Positions 49,724-62,692 of a stretch of 64,000 bases of DNA are shown one piece after another. The notes below the pieces were generated by a model that was given only the letters and a program-made list of their open reading frames with translations, searched no databases and was not told the origin of the DNA. A program made the position numbers and the translations under genes. The DNA is from Arenibacter certesii DSM 19833 (GTDB taxonomy: Bacteria > Bacteroidota > Bacteroidia > Flavobacteriales > Flavobacteriaceae): assembly GCF_000429545.1 (NCBI RefSeq), contig NZ_KE386914.1:282977-346976 (forward strand). The letters run 5' to 3'. Positions within the stretch are counted from its first letter, which is position 1. Every line of letters begins with the position of its first letter.

Positions 49724-50140
49724 AGGGAACTTCAAATTATTTACTTCAACTACCGGTCTTTATTTTATTACTTTGAAATTAACATTTTGCTTGATGATTT
49801 AAATTCAAGTGAGTCTGTAGTTTATCTAATACGACAAATATAAGTTTGTATTCTTAAAAAATCTCTATCGCTATAGTTTTAATAAATGACTAAACAATCT
49901 ACTAAAGGTGAATAGTAAGAGCATCTATTATCTCAGAGAAAGTAGCTGCGACCTCTGATGGAACTAGTAACATGTAAACGCCCGTTCGGGCAGGCTTGCC
50001 CGAACGGGCGGGATTGTGTTAGAGTAATAACCTCAGTTATTAATAATGTACTACCCTATAACACTTAAAAGAAACTGTTGTAGGTATTAGAATCCAGTAA
50101 CGGAGCTTTTACAACCAGAACCCTGAATAGTTTTATAAAG
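49724..50140. other. Spacer with GC-rich hairpin
   Basis: No gene was found in this 417-bp stretch. Its only strong feature is the perfect 14-bp hairpin at 49979-50010. The hairpin lies about 130 bp past the sigma factor stop codon and about 255 bp upstream of the sulfatase-like gene. Confidence 0.5.
49979..50010. repeat. Perfect GC-rich hairpin
   Basis: Arms of 14 bp, CGCCCGTTCGGGCA (49979-49992) and TGCCCGAACGGGCG (49997-50010), are perfectly complementary around the loop GGCT. The GC content is far above that of the flanking DNA. No T-run follows on either strand. The motif GGGCAGG..TGCCCG resembles the GC-rich parts of the dispersed elements in region 1. Confidence 0.8.
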
Positions 50141-50830
50141 CTAATTCTGAACTAGACCTCTAATTTTATCCATTACACTTTGTACCAAAAGGTCGCATTT
50201 AGAGTTTCCAAATTCGAAAGCATTTTTAGCATTGGTAAGTTTAAGAATGGAATCTTGCATCATTTTTCTTGCCCTGTGCAGTCGCACCTTAACATTACTT
50301 ATACTTAGGTCTAGGCTTTGTGAAACCACGGAAATCTCTAGCCCCTGGACCTCCTTTAACATATAAACAATCCGATACTTTTCTGGTAATTGGGCTATTG
50401 CTTTTTCCGCAATATGGACGGATTCTGAGTACATTGTTTCTCTCTCTGGATTCATAATGGAGGTATCAGCAATTTGAAAAATTCCTTTTTCGTTGTTAAT
50501 ACTTATTATTTTATTTCGTTTGAATTTCCTTTTCCGTTGTAATACCTCATTAATACCTATACGTATCAACCATGTGGAAAACAGGGCTTCATTTTTAAAT
50601 TGATATAACTTCTGAAATGCCTTAATATAGGTATCCTGCATTACATCATCTATGTCTGATGGTCTGTCCATGTAACTCCTTATTGTCCTAAACAACAATT
50701 GGTTATACCTTCTCAGCAAAATCTCAAACAATTCGGTTTCACCTCCTAATACTTTTTCCACCACTACCTCATCTGGCAAGGTGGCATAAGGAGATCTTTG
50801 CAGTTTTCTTACGGGTCTACAGCTGTCCAT
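50141..50830 (-). CDS. ECF-type RNA polymerase sigma factor
   Basis: The 229-residue sigma-70-family factor has region 2 at about 35-100 (LLRRYNQLLFRTIRSYM, IDDVMQDTYIKAF, FSTWLIRIGINEVL) and region 4 at about 140-195 (IAQLPEKYRIVYMLKEVQGL, ISNVKVRLHRARKMM). A C-terminal tail FGNSKCDLLVQSVMDKI carries one cysteine. No anti-sigma gene is adjacent. Its own promoter candidate matches that of the divergent DUF4142 gene, indicating autoregulation. The ATG at 50830 is preferred because transcription from that promoter would begin at about 50840, leaving no leader for the ATG at 50839. Confidence 0.88.
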   Translation of the reverse strand: MDSCRPVRKLQRSPYATLPDEVVVEKVLGGETELFEILLRRYNQLLFRTIRSYMDRPSDIDDVMQDTYIKAFQKLYQFKNEALFSTWLIRIGINEVLQRKRKFKRNKIISINNEKGIFQIADTSIMNPERETMYSESVHIAEKAIAQLPEKYRIVYMLKEVQGLEISVVSQSLDLSISNVKVRLHRARKMMQDSILKLTNAKNAFEFGNSKCDLLVQSVMDKIRGLVQN

Positions 50831-50846
50831 TTCTATCATTTTATAA

Positions 50847-50874
50847 TTTGATGCCTTGGAACAAGAAAGGTTAC
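50847..50874 (-). promoter_or_regulatory. Candidate ECF promoter of the sigma gene
   Basis: On the minus strand GTAACC (50869-50874) is followed after exactly 14 bases by GCATCAAA (50847-50854). The same two blocks with the same 14-base spacing stand in front of the divergent DUF4142 gene (51043-51070). The GTAAC-type -35 box and the spacing are typical of ECF promoters. Confidence 0.75.
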
Positions 50875-51042
50875 AAAATTGGTGCTCACTGTTTTTTTTA
50901 GGTGATTTAATAAAATCATACCAAAAGCACCTAGAAATCTAAATATCAAACTATTACAAGTTACAGAATTGGCCAACCAAATCTCATATTAATCTGTTAA
51001 ATCGGTTATCAACCTAAATTAAATCTTGATTTTACTCTAATT

Positions 51043-51070
51043 GTAACCTTTTTTCAATTGCTGCATCAAA
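51043..51070 (+). promoter_or_regulatory. Candidate ECF promoter of the DUF4142-cupredoxin operon
   Basis: GTAACC (51043-51048) and GCATCAAA (51063-51070) are separated by 14 bases, identical in sequence and spacing to the pair in front of the sigma gene. The -10 block overlaps an in-frame ATG at 51070, so that codon and the TTG at 51058 cannot be used on this transcript. This supports the start at 51097. Confidence 0.75.
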
Positions 51071-51096: not shown

Positions 51097-51642
51097 ATGA
51101 AAAAGTTTGCAGATTACATCAGAGGGTTAGGAATCTTGTCATTGTTATTATTAGCCATTCCCATTCATGCCCAAGAATCGCCCCAACTTACCGATCCAGA
51201 AGTAGCCTCGGTTGCAGTAGTAGCCAATCAGATCGATATTGACTTCGCCAAGATTGCTTTAAAAAAATCAGATAACAAGGAGGTTTTGGATTTTGCGAAG
51301 CGTATGATAGAAGACCATACAGCTGTTATAGGGCAAGCCGTAGAATTAGTAACAAAATTAAAGGTTACCCCAATGGACAATGCTGTTAGCCAGTCCCTAC
51401 TAAAACAAGCGGAGGATACCAAGGCCAACTTAAACAACACTAAGAAAAAAGATTTTGATAAATTCTATGTAGACAACGAAGTTGCCTATCACAAACAGGT
51501 AATTGGTGCGGTAAACGACCTTTTAATACCGCAATCCAAAAATGAAGAACTTAGAGAACTTTTGGCGACTGTAGTCCCCGCCCTGGAAATTCATTTAGGC
51601 CATGCCGAGATGTTACAAAAAAAAATGAACTCTAAGAAATGA
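51097..51642 (+). CDS. DUF4142 exported protein
   Basis: The 181-residue product has a signal peptide (GILSLLLLAIPIHA-Q) and a DUF4142 four-helix, ferritin-like-shaped domain. The domain includes VANQIDIDFAKIALKKSDN, VLDFAKRMIEDHTA and NEVAYHKQVIGAVNDLLIP, with the paired DH and YH histidines common to the family. The biochemical role is not established; related genes respond to envelope or oxidative stress. The start was set by the promoter just upstream. It overlaps the cupredoxin gene by 4 bp (ATGA), so both are made together under the divergent sigma factor. Confidence 0.85.
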   Translation: MKKFADYIRGLGILSLLLLAIPIHAQESPQLTDPEVASVAVVANQIDIDFAKIALKKSDNKEVLDFAKRMIEDHTAVIGQAVELVTKLKVTPMDNAVSQSLLKQAEDTKANLNNTKKKDFDKFYVDNEVAYHKQVIGAVNDLLIPQSKNEELRELLATVVPALEIHLGHAEMLQKKMNSKK

Positions 51643-51983
51643 AACAGTTTCAGTATTACTTCCGTAACGTTTTAATAGCATCGATTCTACTACTAGGTGG
51701 CTTTGGATTAAAAGATAATATCATCCAAGAACCACAAGTGCATACAGTAGAAATTATAAAGATGAAGTTTGTTCCGCAACACCTTACAGTAAAAAAAGGA
51801 GACAAGGTAATATGGATCAACAAAGATTATATTCTACACGATGTTACCGATGAGAAAAACGGAAAATGGACCTCAAAACCATTCGGTAAAGGCAAAAATT
51901 GGAGCAAAATAATTACCCATGACGAGGATTATTTCTGCAGCTTGCACAAGGTAATGAAGGGTACTATAAAAATTAGTTCTTAG
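51639..51983 (+). CDS. Cupredoxin (plastocyanin/amicyanin-like blue copper protein)
   Basis: The 114-residue exported protein has an N-terminal hydrophobic segment (VLIASILLLGGFGL) and a cupredoxin domain (about 35-114). The type 1 copper ligands are all present: His67 (ILHDV), Cys100, His103 and Met106 (FCSLHKVM). It is a small periplasmic electron carrier, probably amicyanin- or pseudoazurin-like. Translational coupling to DUF4142 and the shared ECF promoter suggest both act in a copper or oxidative-stress response. A terminator follows 20 bp downstream. Confidence 0.88.
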   Translation: MKQFQYYFRNVLIASILLLGGFGLKDNIIQEPQVHTVEIIKMKFVPQHLTVKKGDKVIWINKDYILHDVTDEKNGKWTSKPFGKGKNWSKIITHDEDYFCSLHKVMKGTIKISS

Positions 51984-54569: not shown

Positions 54570-55171
54570 TTAATATTCTACTCTTTAGATTCTGTTTGCT
54601 CACATAGTGAGAATTTAATTTGGCTACGCTAACCAGCCCGTTCCATTCAGGCAGGCCTGCCTGTTGCATTTAACCAGCGTCCAATCGTTATCGATCTGCT
54701 TTATCCTATGGATCATTGGCAGTAAAAAAAAGGAAAATACTGGATAAAATTTTAAATAAAACAATTTACCTCAACCGATCAATAAACATCTACGATCAGG
54801 TTACATTATGGTACTGGATGCTTAATCAGTTCATTCTAGTCTAGTCTTACCGATAAAAAGCAATGATTCACCCTTTCAATAACTTCTCAATACATCAGTA
54901 AGAAAAGTTTTGCAAAATGTAGACCACTATTATTCAGCACCGCGTATTTTGGTTTACATAAAAAAAGTAGTATAAAACCAATTCATACAGGTTAAACAAA
55001 GTGGGTCACAACACTTATTTCACGTTTCACAACAAACCGAAGTTTCCGTACAACATAACCCAAGATTATAGCAATATACTTTATATCCTTACCGTTATAG
55101 AGTCTTTTCCTACAGTTGGTAAAAATAGCATTTTATATAACGCTATTATAAAAGTAAAAGAGTCGATTATC
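54570..55171. other. Spacer with palindrome before the giant surface protein gene
   Basis: No gene was found in about 600 bp. A 16-bp perfect palindrome lies at 54648-54663. An upstream in-frame GTG at 55001 would extend the next gene by 57 residues, but that stretch precedes a clear signal peptide and is not protein-like. TATTTTGG near 54945 is close to a -7 box but lacks a partner. Confidence 0.5.
54648..54663. repeat. 16-bp GC-rich palindrome
   Basis: CAGGCAGGCCTGCCTG is a perfect palindrome in AT-rich surroundings. The GGCAGGC/GCCTGCC core also occurs in the GC-rich hairpin at 49979-50010 and near 5003-5012, hinting at one family of small GC-rich insertions. Confidence 0.6.
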
Positions 55172-58100
55172 ATGATGAAAAACTCCATAAAATTAGTGCT
55201 TTCCATATTCTTGTTAACCGCAAATATATGGAATGGAAATGCTCAGCTTACTACTAATATAGAAAATTCCAGTTTTAATAGCTGCGGAGCCAACTTACCC
55301 ACTAACGAACTAAATCTTGGTAGTTTAGTTCTCACAGAAGCCGTGGCAACAGATTTTAAAAATGGCACTTACTCTTTTTTTATAGAAGCACCCTCCACTT
55401 TTAATATTAATGCAGGTGCAGCCCCTAAAAATGGGAGTGACCTTACATCGGTTTCTGTAATGCAAGATCCTAATGACACATCCAGATTAAAAGTAACTGT
55501 TACTGCAAATGCCCAAACTTCCTTAGACGTTATTACAATAGATAATGTTCGCATACAATTAATTTCGCCTGAGACTACAACAGACGGGAAGTTAAAATAT
55601 AGTCTAGACGGCAATACCAATAATATTAACGGTTTAGAGGATGGCGATGTAATTGCTACTGTTGGGTTTACCCCATTAAATGGTGGAAACGGAGTAAACC
55701 AACAGGTTTGTGCCCTTTCTAACGTACAAGCTATTGGTATTACAGGGTCTAATATTACTCAATCTAGAAATTATGTTTGGGAAAAGGAGATAGACGGCAC
55801 CTGGACTACTATTACAGATTCCAATTATGAAACCTTACCTCTTACTATTGCCAATGTAACCAATGGAATAAACAAATATAGACGTTCAACCATCTTTAAT
55901 CTATATGGGCAGTCCTGTACCCAAGTAAGCACCCCGGCAACAATTACCATAAATCAAATTACTCCTGGCCGTATTACGCAAGGAGCCTCGCAAACCATTT
56001 GTACGGGTGAAACTCCTGAATTGCTAAGCACCCCTGGCGCAGGTGATTTAGCAGTAACCCCGGGTGGTGAACATAGCTATCAATGGTATAAAAATGATTC
56101 GGGATCTTGGGAAGAGATTTCCAACGCTACAGAAAACTTTTATCAGCCCCCCGCCTTATCTTTTACTACCTCCTATAAAAGAAGGGTAACCAACGTTTTA
56201 AACGGATTTAGCTGTTATAAAGAAACACCTTCTATCACTATAACTGTAAGCTCCTCAATTTTAGGAGGTACGGTATCTAATCAAAACATCTGTTCTCTAG
56301 ATCAGCTCCAGCTGTTAACTGTTAATAATGGGGACAATGGAACCTATCAGTGGCAAAAACGCAATGGAGATAATTGGGAAGACATTAGTGGCGCTACCAA
56401 CATAAGTTACAATGCTGCTAATAACCTAACCCCTGGAGTTCAAGAATTCAGACGAATTACCACTGTTTCTGGAGCCAGCTGCCAGGGTATTAGTACCGTA
56501 GCTACCATTACATATACCAGTTTCACTGTAGGAAGTATTACCGGTGCCGAAACCATTTGTTATAATCAGATTCCTTCTAAGTTAACCTCGGAAACTAATG
56601 CATCAGGATCTGGTTCCATTTCCTACCAATGGGAACAATTTGATGGCAATGGATGGATGGTTATTTCCGGTGCCAACAATGCGGAATACCAACCTACTGC
56701 ACTTACACAAACTACGCGATACAGAAGACAGGACAAAATAGAACTAAACGGACATAACTGTTTCGATTATTCCAATGAAATAGAAATTACCGTTCTCCAA
56801 AAAATCCTGGGAGGAACTGCTAGCTCAGATCAAACCCTTTGTAATGGAGAATACCCTGAATCAATTACTGTAATCAACGGCACTCCCCCTGGAACCAATA
56901 TTACCTACCAATGGCAATCTATGACTACCGGGAATTTTACCAATATTAATGGGGAAACTAGTGCTACTCTTAGTTTTGCCAATACTCTGGAGACTACTAC
57001 CACCTTTAGAAGGCAAACTATAATATCTGATAATAACAGTGTCTGTTACGAAAATTCTACAGAAAGCACGGTATATATTAACCAGATAAGTGTTGGAACA
57101 ATAGGAAACAATCAGGATGTATGTGAGGGACAGCAGCCAGCTACAATTATTGCGCTAGGCAAAACAACAACGCCTGGAAATTTAACCTATGCCTGGGAAG
57201 CATCTACGGATAACGGACTGAGTTGGTCAACTATTCCCACAGCTATAGGAACTACCTATACACCAGAAATCCTAACGATTTCCACTAAGTTTAGGCGGAA
57301 AGATTCAAGCACATATAATGGCACACTTTGTACGAAAAATACTAATGAAGTGGTTATTAACGTAGCTGGAGCAATCTCTGGCGGAGAGGGATCCAAAGAT
57401 CAAGTGGTATGTGAAGGCGAAGCTCCTGAAAGCGTAACCATTGTTAATGGTACCCCTGCTGGAACAGGTATAAACTTCCAGTGGTATTCTTCTATCGATA
57501 ATATTAATTATTCAATAATTAAAGGTGAAACTGGGGAAAAACTAAATTTTGCAAATGGACTAACGAAATCTACCTATTTTAAAAGACATATAACCAATAC
57601 AAACAATGGTTTTGCCTGTGAGGCATTTAGTACACCTACATTGGTTACTTTACTAAGTTTAACACCTGGAAGTATAGCAGATACTCAGACCGTTTGTGGC
57701 ACTGAGAACATTCCTCCGCTTATCAGTATTGAGAATGCAACTTCTAATGGAACCATTACTTATTCTTGGCAAAGTTCCGCTGATGGGGAGATTTGGGAGG
57801 ATATTGCCAATGAAAATCAACCAACCTATACCCCTAACAATTCTGGGGAAATACAAACCTATTATAGGAGGATTGCTACTAGTACCTTGGAGTTAACCAC
57901 TTGTGAAGCCATAACCACGCCAATACTAGTTTATCTTAATAAATTTAAAGATCCAGAGGCTCACAGAATAACCTTTTCTTCAGGTGGAACAGGAAGCACC
58001 ACTGTATGTAACGAAGGTGATCCACAGCCTTTTAGCGTGAATTTTCCGCTTATCGCTTCTGGTGAATTAACGCATCAATGGCAAATTTCCGCTAATAATA

Positions 58101-61100
58101 TAAGTTTTACCAATATTGCTGGAGCCACCGATAGTTCTTATGATCCACCAATCGTAACTCAGGACAATTACTATAGAAGAATCACTACCTCTACTTTAAA
58201 CGGCGTCACTTGTAGCCATACCAGCAACGTTCTTCTAATTTTAAACGGTGGAAATGCTACGGGAGGAATCATTGGAACAACTCACGCCAACGGAAGTAAC
58301 GGCACAAATGAAGAAGTGATCTGCAAAGGGGATATTCCAAGTGAAATTGAACAACTGGAAGCTTCTACCGGAGATGATATTATTACCCATAAATGGTTTG
58401 CTAATGGTAGCTTAATACCTGGAGCCACCAATGTAAACTATATTCCTACAAATCCGGTAAATAAAACTACAACCTATATAAGAGCAACTACCAACACTGA
58501 TATTAATGGTGTAGAGTGCACTGTAAACAGTAACCCTATCACTGTTTTGGTACCACAGGCCGATAACCTAGGTCCAGACATCACTTTATGTTATAATGAT
58601 ACATTACCCCCTTTGGGCAACATTAGCGCCATAGAAGGGCTCCCTTATTTAAATTTTCAATGGTACCAATCTAATGACAACATTGTATTTACCCCAATTG
58701 TAGGGGCAACAAATGCCACGTATTCACCTGGGAGCGTCCTATCAGCAGACAAATATTACCGTAGGGATTACCAAGCTACTGTAGATAATATTATATGTGG
58801 CCCTTATGTACAAAGCAATGTCATTAGAGTTTTCATTAATGATGTGGATGGAGGTACTATTTATGGAGATCAGAAAATTTGCTTTGGGGACGACCCTAGC
58901 TTATTGGGAAGTACGGTTGATGGAACTGCCGACGGAGTTCTAAAATATCAATGGTATTCCTCTGTTGATAACGCAACTTGGGGGCTAATAAAGGGGGCAA
59001 TTAACGGTACTTATGACCCTAAACCTGGCAACTACCCAACAACTTATTTTAAAAGAACCACTATATCAACCCTCAACAGAGTAGTATGTAAGGAAGATAG
59101 TAATGTAATAGTAGTGCAAGTTGCAGATGAACTATTACCAGGCACTCTTAGCAACGATCAAACTATTTGTGAAGGCAATGTCCCAAACACCTTATCTGTT
59201 TCTGGAGCCAGCAATTTTCCGGATCAAAGTTATAAGTGGTTGGTTTCTATAGACGGTAATACTTGGACCGATACTGGTGCAACTACTGCAACCTATACCC
59301 CACCTACGCCTACCGAAACAAAATATTACAAGCGAACGATTACTAGGACTACATTAGGTGATATAACCTGTACGGTAGAAACAAATCCGGTTAAAATATC
59401 GTATAACGTGGTTAATGCTGGAATAATAGCCGATAACCAATCTGTTTGTATGGGCGACCAGCCCCTTGCCATAGTAGAACTTGAATCTGCTATAGGAGCA
59501 GGTGTGTTAACCTATCAGTGGTGGTCCTCAGAAGATAACCAAACCTATAATCCGGTTACCAATGCCAAGCAACCAAACTATACTCCGCCTACTACTTTAA
59601 CAAAATCTACTTACTATAAGAGAGTAGTCACTAGTACCTTAAACGAAGTAGCTTGTTCTGATGAAACATCACCTATTTTAGTTACGGTTATTCCCTACCC
59701 CTTTATAAATAATGATTTAATAATAGCCAATGACATAACCAACGTTAGTTGCTTTGGTGGAAATGATGGAAGCATAATTATCCCAAACGACAGGATTACG
59801 GGTGGAAATAGCGCCCAAAAACAGATTAATACCATCTCTCTTTTTGGAAATCCCACTCTAGGCAATAAGTACAGCCTAATAATAAACGGAATTGCTTATG
59901 AACATCAGGTTACCTTAAACGGTATTAATCAGCCTCAAAATAACAATGAAGTTGCCGCTGCCCTTTCACAAAAAGTAAACATTGCCTCAGGAGCCAAAAT
60001 GAGCGCTGTAAGTGCAACCGCTAATTTCAACGAGATTATAGTAACCGCTAAAGTAGAAGGCATTAGCTTTACGGTGTATGCTAGTACAGGAAGCGACTCT
60101 AATGTAAGTGCTTCCAATGTACTTACCCAAGCGAATGGAGTTGCCAATACATATGAATGGACGAAAGTTGGGGATCCAGATTTTACCACATCAACCCTTA
60201 GTATAAGCGACTTGCAAGCAGGAGTATATCAATTAGCGGTTTATAACGAATTCTGTGGTACTACCTCCTTGCCTTACCTAGTGTCCGAGCCAGAGAAATT
60301 AACGCTTACTATTGGCGATACTTGTAATACGGTTATTACTGCGAATAGTACTGGCGGTGTTGCGCCCTTTACTTTTACATTAACTAGGCCAAATGGTACC
60401 ACTATGGTGCAAACGTCTAACAACCCCAATGTAACCTATACCGATTTAACAGGCGGTGCCAACTATACGGTTACTGTACAGGATGCTTCTTGCGATGTTT
60501 CTGTATCACAGGCTGTTACTCTGCCCATGGGGTTGAATTTTGATGAAGCATCCATAGAAGTGAAAAATGTGAGCTGTTTTGGTCAAAGTGACGGGTCAAT
60601 AAGCTTAAACATTGGCACTACCACAGTTACTGGCGGATTCCCTCCATATAATTTTAGCTGGACGGGCCCCAATAACACTACTTATACTACAGAAAACATT
60701 AAAAATTTATTGCCAGGTGTTTACGTTCTGTCCGTTACAGATCAGATTGGATGCTCTACCACTTATACCGCTAATGTGGCTTCTAAAGGGATCTTGGAAT
60801 TTAGTAGTGTGCAGGTAGTAAATGAACAATTACAGTGTGCTGGAGATTCTAATGCCGAAATTAACATTCAAATTAAGTCGGACCCAAGCAGTCAACTACA
60901 AATAAACTGGCTTAAGAATGGTACTAGCTATGCCACCAACACAACCCACATTAACCATTTAGGTGGTGGTACTTATGAGGTAGTGGTAACCGATACAAAT
61001 AGTGATCCCAACGCCCCATGTACTATCCGAAAGACATTTTCAATAAATGCTCCCGAAGTGTTCGATGCTTTTGAAGGGGGATCAAAGAGTACAAGTTGTT

Positions 61101-62692
61101 TCGATCTAAATGTAGGAAGGTCATTTACTATAAGGGTACAAGGTGGTACTGCTCCCTATCAATATACCTTAGATAATGAAACTGCGGTACTATTTAATAC
61201 CAAGGAAACCACTATAAATGGTCTTAATAACGATAGTCATATAATAACTGTAACCGATGCCAATCAATGTAAAGTAAAAAGCTTTCGCTTAGATGATTAT
61301 CAAGCATTGACTTATACGGGAACCAAGGATGTTACCTTAGCTCCGTGTGAAGTAGATTATGATTTTGTTTTAGATACCAACTTCGTAACGGGTGGTACTC
61401 CTTTTATGGACACCAATAATACTCCCTATTACTTATATGATTGGACAGGTCCCAATAACTTTATTGCCCAAGATGTTACCAGCTTTACAGCTATTCCGGG
61501 CACCTATACCCTAACTATTACCGATAGTAAGGATTGTACATCACAACAAATCCAGTTTAACTTTAAAACCGCCTATGCTCCACTTGTAGTTAATAAGGAT
61601 ATAACATCGGTAAGTTGTGGGTCTACAAAAGATGGCGCTATATCCATTGCCGTTAGTGGCGGATCTAGACCTTATTCTTTAATCTGGGAAAAGGAAGTAG
61701 CTGGTAACCCTGATCCAGAATTTGCAACCATAGGACAAAATATAACCCAGTTGAGTAATTTGGAGGAGGGAAGATACAGACTCACCATAACCAGTTCTAT
61801 TGATGGATGTACCAAGGAGAATCCCTCTTATTACTACAGAGAAATAATCCACATAAAGAAAACCGAGTCCCTAAAACTCTTGGACGGCCCATATTTAGAT
61901 GAAGCCTTATGCTTAGGAAATCCGGGGAAAATTTCAGTATCGATTTTTAATACTCAGGGTGGCGATTTAAGCTTCTACTATAACAACGCATTAATGCCAT
62001 CGGTAAAAACAGGCGCAGACACCTACAGCATTCAAATTGCAACTCCGATGGAGAATGCCATGCTAAACGTAGTGAACGATCAGGGATGTGGGTTTATACT
62101 CCCCATAAGTACTGGAGTAGCAGAACCCGTATTTAGTTATAATTCTGCTGAATTCGAAATTACCGGTCTCTTATTGGCTAAAGAAGAAATAAGATTCAGC
62201 ATTAATAGTGAAGGGTATAGTAGAGCAAGGTGGGATTTTGGTGACGGTACTCCTGTTATGGATATAAATCCGAACATTGAAGGCTCTTTGGTTTCACATA
62301 AATACAGCTATCCCGGTAAGTTTATTACTGCCCTAACCCTTTATAACGAACAGGGATGTAGTAAAACAGTACAGCAGACCTTACAGATTGGTAAAGGCTT
62401 TGATGTAATGTTCCCTAATGTATTCTCTGCCAATGCCGATGGTATAAACGATTATTTCCAGGGAGAGTTTACAGGACTAGCATCCTTTACCTTCCAAATT
62501 TTTGATATGTGGGGCAGCCTAGTTTATAGCGTAGCCTATGACTATAACAATATGCCGGTGAACTGGGGTTGGAACGGAAATTATAGTACTGGGAAACCCT
62601 ATGAAAATAAATCATTCCGATACTTGTTTATAGGGACTACCAAAGAAAATAATCAAATCACAAAAACTGGCGAAGCCTCAATATTAAGATAG
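55172..62692 (+). CDS. Giant T9SS type B surface protein with Ig-like and SprB-like repeats
   Basis: This 2,506-residue exported adhesin-like protein has a signal peptide at about 1-25 (LVLSIFLLTANIWNGNA-Q). A short N-terminal domain is followed by 14 tandem Ig-like modules at about 170-1510. Each is about 95 residues and built around VC.G..P, a YQW strand, and YYRR then C. SprB-like repeats marked by VSCFG..DGSI span about 1520-2250, and the first is interrupted by a roughly 100-residue insert (about 1551-1656). A PKD-like domain (ARWDFGDGT) and a gliding-motility/T9SS type B C-terminal signal (VFSANADGINDYF) end it. It is secreted by T9SS and probably held at the surface, where it may act in adhesion or gliding. 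The ATG at 55172 is chosen for the signal peptide. Confidence 0.9.
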   Translation: MMKNSIKLVLSIFLLTANIWNGNAQLTTNIENSSFNSCGANLPTNELNLGSLVLTEAVATDFKNGTYSFFIEAPSTFNINAGAAPKNGSDLTSVSVMQDPNDTSRLKVTVTANAQTSLDVITIDNVRIQLISPETTTDGKLKYSLDGNTNNINGLEDGDVIATVGFTPLNGGNGVNQQVCALSNVQAIGITGSNITQSRNYVWEKEIDGTWTTITDSNYETLPLTIANVTNGINKYRRSTIFNLYGQSCTQVSTPATITINQITPGRITQGASQTICTGETPELLSTPGAGDLAVTPGGEHSYQWYKNDSGSWEEISNATENFYQPPALSFTTSYKRRVTNVLNGFSCYKETPSITITVSSSILGGTVSNQNICSLDQLQLLTVNNGDNGTYQWQKRNGDNWEDISGATNISYNAANNLTPGVQEFRRITTVSGASCQGISTVATITYTSFTVGSITGAETICYNQIPSKLTSETNASGSGSISYQWEQFDGNGWMVISGANNAEYQPTALTQTTRYRRQDKIELNGHNCFDYSNEIEITVLQKILGGTASSDQTLCNGEYPESITVINGTPPGTNITYQWQSMTTGNFTNINGETSATLSFANTLETTTTFRRQTIISDNNSVCYENSTESTVYINQISVGTIGNNQDVCEGQQPATIIALGKTTTPGNLTYAWEASTDNGLSWSTIPTAIGTTYTPEILTISTKFRRKDSSTYNGTLCTKNTNEVVINVAGAISGGEGSKDQVVCEGEAPESVTIVNGTPAGTGINFQWYSSIDNINYSIIKGETGEKLNFANGLTKSTYFKRHITNTNNGFACEAFSTPTLVTLLSLTPGSIADTQTVCGTENIPPLISIENATSNGTITYSWQSSADGEIWEDIANENQPTYTPNNSGEIQTYYRRIATSTLELTTCEAITTPILVYLNKFKDPEAHRITFSSGGTGSTTVCNEGDPQPFSVNFPLIASGELTHQWQISANNISFTNIAGATDSSYDPPIVTQDNYYRRITTSTLNGVTCSHTSNVLLILNGGNATGGIIGTTHANGSNGTNEEVICKGDIPSEIEQLEASTGDDIITHKWFANGSLIPGATNVNYIPTNPVNKTTTYIRATTNTDINGVECTVNSNPITVLVPQADNLGPDITLCYNDTLPPLGNISAIEGLPYLNFQWYQSNDNIVFTPIVGATNATYSPGSVLSADKYYRRDYQATVDNIICGPYVQSNVIRVFINDVDGGTIYGDQKICFGDDPSLLGSTVDGTADGVLKYQWYSSVDNATWGLIKGAINGTYDPKPGNYPTTYFKRTTISTLNRVVCKEDSNVIVVQVADELLPGTLSNDQTICEGNVPNTLSVSGASNFPDQSYKWLVSIDGNTWTDTGATTATYTPPTPTETKYYKRTITRTTLGDITCTVETNPVKISYNVVNAGIIADNQSVCMGDQPLAIVELESAIGAGVLTYQWWSSEDNQTYNPVTNAKQPNYTPPTTLTKSTYYKRVVTSTLNEVACSDETSPILVTVIPYPFINNDLIIANDITNVSCFGGNDGSIIIPNDRITGGNSAQKQINTISLFGNPTLGNKYSLIINGIAYEHQVTLNGINQPQNNNEVAAALSQKVNIASGAKMSAVSATANFNEIIVTAKVEGISFTVYASTGSDSNVSASNVLTQANGVANTYEWTKVGDPDFTTSTLSISDLQAGVYQLAVYNEFCGTTSLPYLVSEPEKLTLTIGDTCNTVITANSTGGVAPFTFTLTRPNGTTMVQTSNNPNVTYTDLTGGANYTVTVQDASCDVSVSQAVTLPMGLNFDEASIEVKNVSCFGQSDGSISLNIGTTTVTGGFPPYNFSWTGPNNTTYTTENIKNLLPGVYVLSVTDQIGCSTTYTANVASKGILEFSSVQVVNEQLQCAGDSNAEINIQIKSDPSSQLQINWLKNGTSYATNTTHINHLGGGTYEVVVTDTNSDPNAPCTIRKTFSINAPEVFDAFEGGSKSTSCFDLNVGRSFTIRVQGGTAPYQYTLDNETAVLFNTKETTINGLNNDSHIITVTDANQCKVKSFRLDDYQALTYTGTKDVTLAPCEVDYDFVLDTNFVTGGTPFMDTNNTPYYLYDWTGPNNFIAQDVTSFTAIPGTYTLTITDSKDCTSQQIQFNFKTAYAPLVVNKDITSVSCGSTKDGAISIAVSGGSRPYSLIWEKEVAGNPDPEFATIGQNITQLSNLEEGRYRLTITSSIDGCTKENPSYYYREIIHIKKTESLKLLDGPYLDEALCLGNPGKISVSIFNTQGGDLSFYYNNALMPSVKTGADTYSIQIATPMENAMLNVVNDQGCGFILPISTGVAEPVFSYNSAEFEITGLLLAKEEIRFSINSEGYSRARWDFGDGTPVMDINPNIEGSLVSHKYSYPGKFITALTLYNEQGCSKTVQQTLQIGKGFDVMFPNVFSANADGINDYFQGEFTGLASFTFQIFDMWGSLVYSVAYDYNNMPVNWGWNGNYSTGKPYENKSFRYLFIGTTKENNQITKTGEASILR

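Follow-up and report, generated by a model that had tools for sequence, protein, structure and literature searches.

A predicted ECF sigma factor promoter shared by a sigma gene and its divergent DUF4142-cupredoxin operon in Arenibacter certesii

In a 64,000-nucleotide stretch of the Arenibacter certesii DSM 19833 genome (hereafter the window), an ECF sigma factor gene and a divergent DUF4142-cupredoxin operon are each preceded by the same two-block element. With a probability of nearly nine in ten, we read these elements as two divergent promoters recognized by the product of the ECF sigma factor gene (50141-50830), which would drive both its own gene and the operon. The blocks would serve as the -35 (TGTAACC) and -10 (CATCAAA) of each promoter. 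Active sigma factor would initiate transcription at its own promoter, resulting in positive autoregulation, and would also read the second promoter, from which DUF4142 and the cupredoxin would be transcribed as a two-gene operon. Across the lineage, the same promoter would precede most operons of a cluster comprising the sigma gene, a DUF4142-cupredoxin-dihaem (MauG-like) run, a reductase-FolE pair and a small membrane protein, and going by the motif searches only two local transcripts would remain in the window genome. Induction would most plausibly be sensed through the cysteine-bearing C-terminal tail of the sigma factor itself. From these sequence data we infer that the sigma factor binds the sites and regulates itself, and that the encoded products make up a periplasmic module for copper/haem redox or metal stress.

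The element, GTAACC-N14-GCATCAAA, is present in two copies, at 50874-50847 (minus strand) and 51043-51070 (plus strand), each with zero mismatches and a spacer of 14 bases. The predicted ECF-type promoter of the sigma gene spans 50847-50878 on the minus strand, from TTTTGTAACC (-35) to GCATCAAA (-10), and that of the DUF4142-cupredoxin operon spans 51043-51070 on the plus strand; each is an exact match. A preliminary description of this DNA had reported identical blocks and spacing at both positions, and re-reading the window bears this out, while its remark that the intervening sequences are unrelated is mostly correct, except that TTT opens both spacers. The scan that it proposed, over the whole genome (4,989,751 bases, 83 contigs), finds the exact pattern at these two sites alone and no match for a reversed control pattern, the chance expectation being about 0.04 per genome (simple arithmetic for 14 fixed bases at equal base frequencies). 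When up to three mismatches are allowed, the window contains 8 matches vs. 6.05 expected, and matching this loose says nothing. The closeness of that count to expectation speaks for mere chance repetition of the 14-base pattern, a notion to which we give hardly any credence given that exact pairs occur nowhere else in the genome and are conserved at orthologous loci. Genome-wide, two mismatches yield 45 matches vs. 42 for the reversed control, and a refined pattern with one mismatch yields 8 vs. 2. Nine distinct extra places were examined (L003, L004, L018, L021, which is the same as L139, L137, L138, L140, L141, and L142), and none of them offers a further target, each lying inside a spanning open frame. 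Elsewhere in the window, a GC-rich inverted repeat (gcccgttcgggcaggcttgcccgaacgggc, 49980-50009) lies 3' of the sigma gene in AT-rich surroundings, and a repetitive protein of 2563 aa with the look of a surface adhesin is encoded downstream (55001-62692).

The minus-strand protein is an ECF sigma factor (sigma-70 family, group 4) by virtue of its regions 2 and 4. Pfam detects Sigma70_r2 (residues 41-107, 7e-13) and Sigma70_r4_2 (residues 145-194, 7.6e-14) only, with no region 3. The sigma protein of A. latericius is 94% identical to it. The best curated model, NF008888/PRK11922, scores 195.9 bits, which is under its cutoff of 204, and two orthologues tested, from Pontibacter (245.8) and Marixanthomonas (215.5), pass that cutoff (L068, L071). 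The first in-frame ATG, at 50839, gives a protein of 232 aa. Of 22 sigma rows, 16 place the first long ATG 15-18 nt beyond the sigma promoter (16 nt for L062, L063, L072, L033, and L034), and three place it at 25-30 nt (L066, L067, and L071). In the remaining three, the window, A. latericius, and L064, the distance is 7-10 nt, and all three offer a second Met in frame at 16 nt. Because of this second Met and the 15-18 nt spacing seen in relatives, and in keeping with the alignment, a start at 50830 is favored over 50839, which would make the sigma factor 229 aa long. Across all 64 site rows, the first long ATG follows at 15-30 nt in 46 and at other distances in 10, and eight have no long ATG open frame within 160 nt.

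On the plus strand, the first gene of the operon (51097-51642) encodes a DUF4142 protein of 181 aa (Pfam DUF4142, 1.6e-33) that appears to be exported, judging by its N-terminus. Its stop codon overlaps the start of the second gene (ATGA), which encodes a small cupredoxin of 114 aa (51639-51983; Pfam Copper-bind, 2.3e-7). This protein matches an amicyanin model below cutoff (2.9e-7) and, by eye, carries C-x2-H-x2-M with a His upstream. Two other candidate starts of the DUF4142 gene, TTG at 51058 and ATG at 51070, fall inside the promoter and 51097 sits 26 nt past it, while in seven DUF4142 orthologues counted outside the window and A. latericius (L034, L065, L067, L068, L070, L108, and L124) the site stands 24-30 nt before the ATG; 51097 is thus the favored start. 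The promoters had been said to fix both start codons, and the sites do help in this, with the promoter-to-ATG distances favoring 50830 and 51097. The DUF4142 protein also passes the Pfam DUF305 model, albeit narrowly (27.3 bits vs. a cutoff of 27), and since CopM is a DUF305 protein that binds copper, copper binding by the DUF4142 protein is, by analogy, a lead and not a result. CopM is described as a copper-binding protein of Synechocystis (PMC4335983).

Conservation of the motif was assessed at 19 loci picked by the sigma protein alone (the window included, duplicated genomes counted once each) by scanning 330 nt upstream of the sigma match. GTAAC-N16-CATC[ACT]AA faces the sigma gene at 16 of the 19, among them loci of Aequorivita, Marixanthomonas, Gelidibacter, Flagellimonas, and Pontibacter, and a divergent copy lies in the same stretch at 12, the test being partly circular at the [ACT] base, which was set after the loci had been viewed; the strict A form recurs at that position in several loci. 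Dinucleotide shuffles (200 per region) give 0 matches, and the motif was found in none of 19 regions upstream of paralogous ECF genes. As for the exceptions, L039 and L040 carry forms with two mismatches, and the most distant locus, L073 (39% identity), carries none. At another distant ECF locus, L127 (27% identity), GTAACA-type sites occur with the same spacing, perhaps representing a sister promoter code. The preliminary description had let its reading stand or fall with conservation of the motif before orthologous sigma and DUF4142 genes, and conserved it is; the autoregulated ECF sigma factor with a divergent DUF4142 operon that it envisaged gains support from the fixed spacing, from sites that face both genes, and from the way in which these follow the sigma factor across genomes. 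In a set of 61 different sites collected at 26 related loci, some of which are themselves motif-found, T precedes GTAAC in all 61, C follows it in 52, and G precedes CATC in only 32, and as the set was gathered with GTAAC-N16-CATC[ACT]AA fixed, the columns outside this pattern alone provide free estimates.

A conserved two-block element before several operons would also fit a transcription-factor site, in which case the blocks would be the operator of a conventional regulator and not promoter elements. This we consider very unlikely, since the element is asymmetric and gene-facing, with a single spacer length and a mostly narrow distance to the ATG, divergent pairs often consist of two distinct elements placed back to back, and at the loci listed no other regulator gene was seen constantly adjoining it.

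Co-occurrence of the motif with the sigma gene was assessed within the genus Arenibacter. An orthologue of the sigma factor (E 1.6e-103 or better) is present in 8 of 18 Arenibacter genomes, while the best match in the other 10 is a paralogue (2.4e-17 to 4.1e-22). The pattern TTGTAAC-N16-CATCHAA occurs at 26 sites in the 8 sigma-bearing genomes vs. 3 sites in the 10 sigma-less genomes, with 4 for the reversed control in all 18, these counts coming from related genomes and so not being independent. All 26 sites lie upstream of cluster genes (positions matched to the loci read), and of the three in sigma-less genomes, two fall within open frames and the third (L161) has no cluster gene nearby. 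In genome G010, a reductase gene located on a different contig has a site in front of it, as does the membrane-protein gene, which lies approximately 13 kb from the sigma gene; with sites kept at such displaced genes, the site goes with the gene and not with the place. An earlier pattern, TGTAAC-N16-CATCAAA, finds 20 sites in the sigma-bearing genomes, 17 at cluster genes and 3 elsewhere, with none in G010, and both of the off-cluster sites that were examined lie inside open frames. The same pattern has 8 sites in 7 of the sigma-less genomes (reversed control 2), and among the six examined four are inside open frames, one (L092) is outside, and one is in G009. The split of the genus is weaker with this pattern than with TTGTAAC-N16-CATCHAA. 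In the sigma-less G009 (L145:1780-1962), the motif precedes a 60-aa open frame corresponding to the start of the reductase sequence, and this remnant adjoins a gene like the GIY-YIG gene of the window. Motif and remnant are probably the relic of a lost cluster.

It could be argued that the sites are indeed ECF promoters but are read by another ECF sigma factor of the genome and not by the neighboring one. A search with the sigma protein gives 20 matches in the window genome, the -35 elements of ECF promoters are often alike, L127 carries its similarly shaped GTAACA-type sites, and the looser pattern still matches in 7 of the 10 sigma-less Arenibacter genomes. Nevertheless, we regard this as improbable: the sigma-less genomes are rich in ECF factors and yet hold just the three TTGTAAC-N16-CATCHAA sites, none at cluster genes, against the 26 of their relatives, and the site tracks the window-type sigma factor across genera while the 19 paralogue regions have none. 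Recognition by the neighboring sigma factor remains our preferred reading. A scan of 397 genomes of the family with TTTGTAAC-N16-CATCAAA finds 32 sites, spread over 30 genomes, against 4 for the control; 13 of the sites lie beside cluster genes. At the level of the phylum (247 genomes), TTTTGTAAC-N16-CATCHAA finds 12 sites (control 5), four of which lie beside the sigma gene or an orthologue, two of them in genomes that share only the phylum (G468 and G483). Given the low share at clusters in both scans, a bare motif match is often meaningless and constitutes weak evidence. Within Bacteroidota, the system is old yet patchy.

If cluster genes are taken as those with a site directly before them or before their run, the cluster is modular across Bacteroidota, being drawn from the sigma factor, DUF4142-cupredoxin, a MauG-like dihaem protein, FolE, an FAD/NAD reductase, and a small membrane protein. 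The dihaem protein (452 aa, two CxxCH by eye) resembles MauG but falls under the cutoffs, the GTP cyclohydrolase I is over the FolE cutoff, and FAD/NAD reductases are identified by Pfam among the site-preceded genes. For the small membrane protein, searched at E 5, two of four copies have a sub-threshold match to MauE (0.016 and 0.029). A DoxX-like label was dropped for this protein, the one copy scanned at 1e-3 having no Pfam or NCBIfam match. At L062, L066, and 51639-51983 of the window, resemblances to accessory proteins of methylamine utilization recur, all below cutoffs: the cupredoxin to amicyanin, the dihaem protein to MauG, and the membrane protein to MauE. Only the sigma gene was found at nearly all loci read and, as any of the other cluster genes can be absent from a locus, it alone constantly accompanies the promoter in the clusters seen. 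In the window genome, the dihaem and membrane proteins were unmatched in searches run without a positive control, and the motif searches place sites only at the sigma gene and DUF4142-cupredoxin.

Gene order offers a glimpse of how the present locus may have arisen. In G004, the order is sigma, reductase, folE, [site] DUF4142, cupredoxin, dihaem protein, and SDR (the latter by eye), and in the window it is sigma, [site] DUF4142, cupredoxin, and SDR. The window fits the loss of the intervening reductase and folE as well as the dihaem gene, which suggests a direction of change that is itself inferred. The DUF4142 promoter was probably brought beside the sigma gene through loss of the two genes between them. 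An origin of the divergent site as a duplicate of the sigma promoter was rejected, as the G004 run shows the DUF4142 promoter to look old and its own. In Allomuricauda and Flagellimonas (L066:4135-10627 and L067:4959-10627), globin genes and cytochrome-oxidase-like genes are found near the sigma and membrane-protein genes, which hints at a link to oxygen or NO; Pfam identifies one of the globins, and the remaining assignments come from tblastn or inspection by eye.

The sigma factor has a C-terminal extension, FEFGNSKCD... (minus strand, 50144-50218), which is supported by alignment, motif count, and a predicted helix. In the numbering of the 232-aa form, its cysteine is Cys215, encoded at 50195-50197. 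C215 and D216 are invariant in a 12-sequence alignment, where C215 is the sole invariant Cys, and the window protein has two Cys in all (C7 and C215) and no CXC. A tail of the form [FYL][ED]F...[KR]CD with the conserved Cys is seen by eye in 34 of 34 orthologue rows (28 distinct genomes by reading), and a narrower expression that requires F first matches 28 of the 34 and none of 21 paralogues. An AlphaFold model of the sigma factor predicts a helix at 212-231, after region 4; with a pLDDT of 70 and a pTM of 0.50, the domains are readable and the placement of the tail is not.

An anti-sigma factor encoded next to the ECF gene is common and not defining, as is an autoregulated ECF-type promoter. 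No anti-sigma gene was found beside the sigma gene among the window neighbors scanned by Pfam, among the part of the orthologue neighbors so scanned, or by eye beside the sigma gene at 13 loci. At L068, a second, distant ECF gene is followed by a membrane protein that is maybe the anti-sigma factor of that second ECF factor. The small membrane protein of the cluster was considered for such a role and is unlikely to be generally required, as it was undetected in the window genome (a search with no positive control) and is not at every cluster. Positive feedback with no visible anti-sigma factor needs another brake. The C-terminal tail is likely to be the regulatory input of the sigma factor, and its Cys may sense directly; alternatively, the tail may be structural, or an anti-sigma factor may be encoded at an unlinked site. 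It is tempting to go further and propose a Bacteroidota ECF lineage devoid of any anti-sigma factor, in which the conserved tail Cys is itself the sensor, of redox or of copper, and the sigma factor in turn activates its own gene together with a periplasmic module for copper/dihaem electron transfer that combines DUF4142 with parts resembling amicyanin, MauG, and MauE. This is a tentative proposal, and we would sooner bet against it than for it.

Bacteroidota encode many ECF sigma factors, but to our knowledge the promoter and regulon have been defined for few of them. In the present case, the sequence by itself yields a promoter code that can be tested, a small regulon, and better start codons, and the Arenibacter members with and without the sigma factor form a natural experiment. 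DUF4142 and the linked cupredoxin gain a regulatory context, and one Cys is singled out as a candidate sensor.

Among known systems, the closest solved relatives by both sequence and fold are Escherichia coli sigma-E (RpoE) and Pseudomonas AlgU, with which the two-domain ECF build is shared; Foldseek confirms the ECF fold and nothing beyond. The AAC-to-TC distance in the window (18 nt) and the TCAAA core match the sigma-E consensus. In contrast to sigma-E and AlgU, the window sigma factor has no visible RseA/MucA-like anti-sigma factor alongside, an extra conserved C-terminal tail, and an apparently tiny regulon. Filing it with SigF of Caulobacter crescentus, which belongs to ECF33, was rejected because its -10 differs and no DUF1109 (NrsF) was found among the window neighbors scanned. 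SigF reads a GTAACC-N16-CGAA promoter, controls a small metal-responsive regulon that includes a DoxX-family membrane protein, and has a membrane negative regulator, NrsF (DUF1109) (PMC3511200). The -35 GTAACC is thus common to both, whereas the -10 is CATC[ACT]AA in the window vs. CGAA, and the other targets differ. In open-licence literature, GTAACC together with an ECF sigma factor was found in this Caulobacter paper alone (PMC3511200), and nothing was found that combines DUF4142 with "ECF sigma factor" or that names PRK11922.

Other systems resemble the locus in single respects. CorE-like factors (ECF44/ECF238) are described as copper-dependent, with a C-terminal extension and no anti-sigma factor for activation (PMC8999054). 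They have a Cys-rich C-terminal domain and a CXC in the linker, however, whereas the window sigma factor has one invariant Cys and no CXC, and for this reason it was not filed as CorE-like. SigAb of Acinetobacter is an autoregulated ECF factor that controls three targets directly and responds to copper; in contrast to the window locus, AabA and AabB with anti-sigma activity are encoded in its operon (PMC12153292). The mll/mlu cluster of Methylorubrum extorquens contains a ferritin-like DUF4142 gene, mllJ, and a sigma factor (PMC11317620), but that sigma factor comes with an anti-sigma factor and a TonB receptor (cell-surface signaling), and the cluster makes a lanthanide chelator. In a sulfite-oxidation system, the ECF factor SnRpoE1 drives a DUF305 gene and is accompanied by an anti-sigma factor, and related SOE promoters have the consensus GGAAT/CGTC (PMC6527743). 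Overall, the window system belongs to a well-known kind, and its wider interest lies in the cysteine tail.
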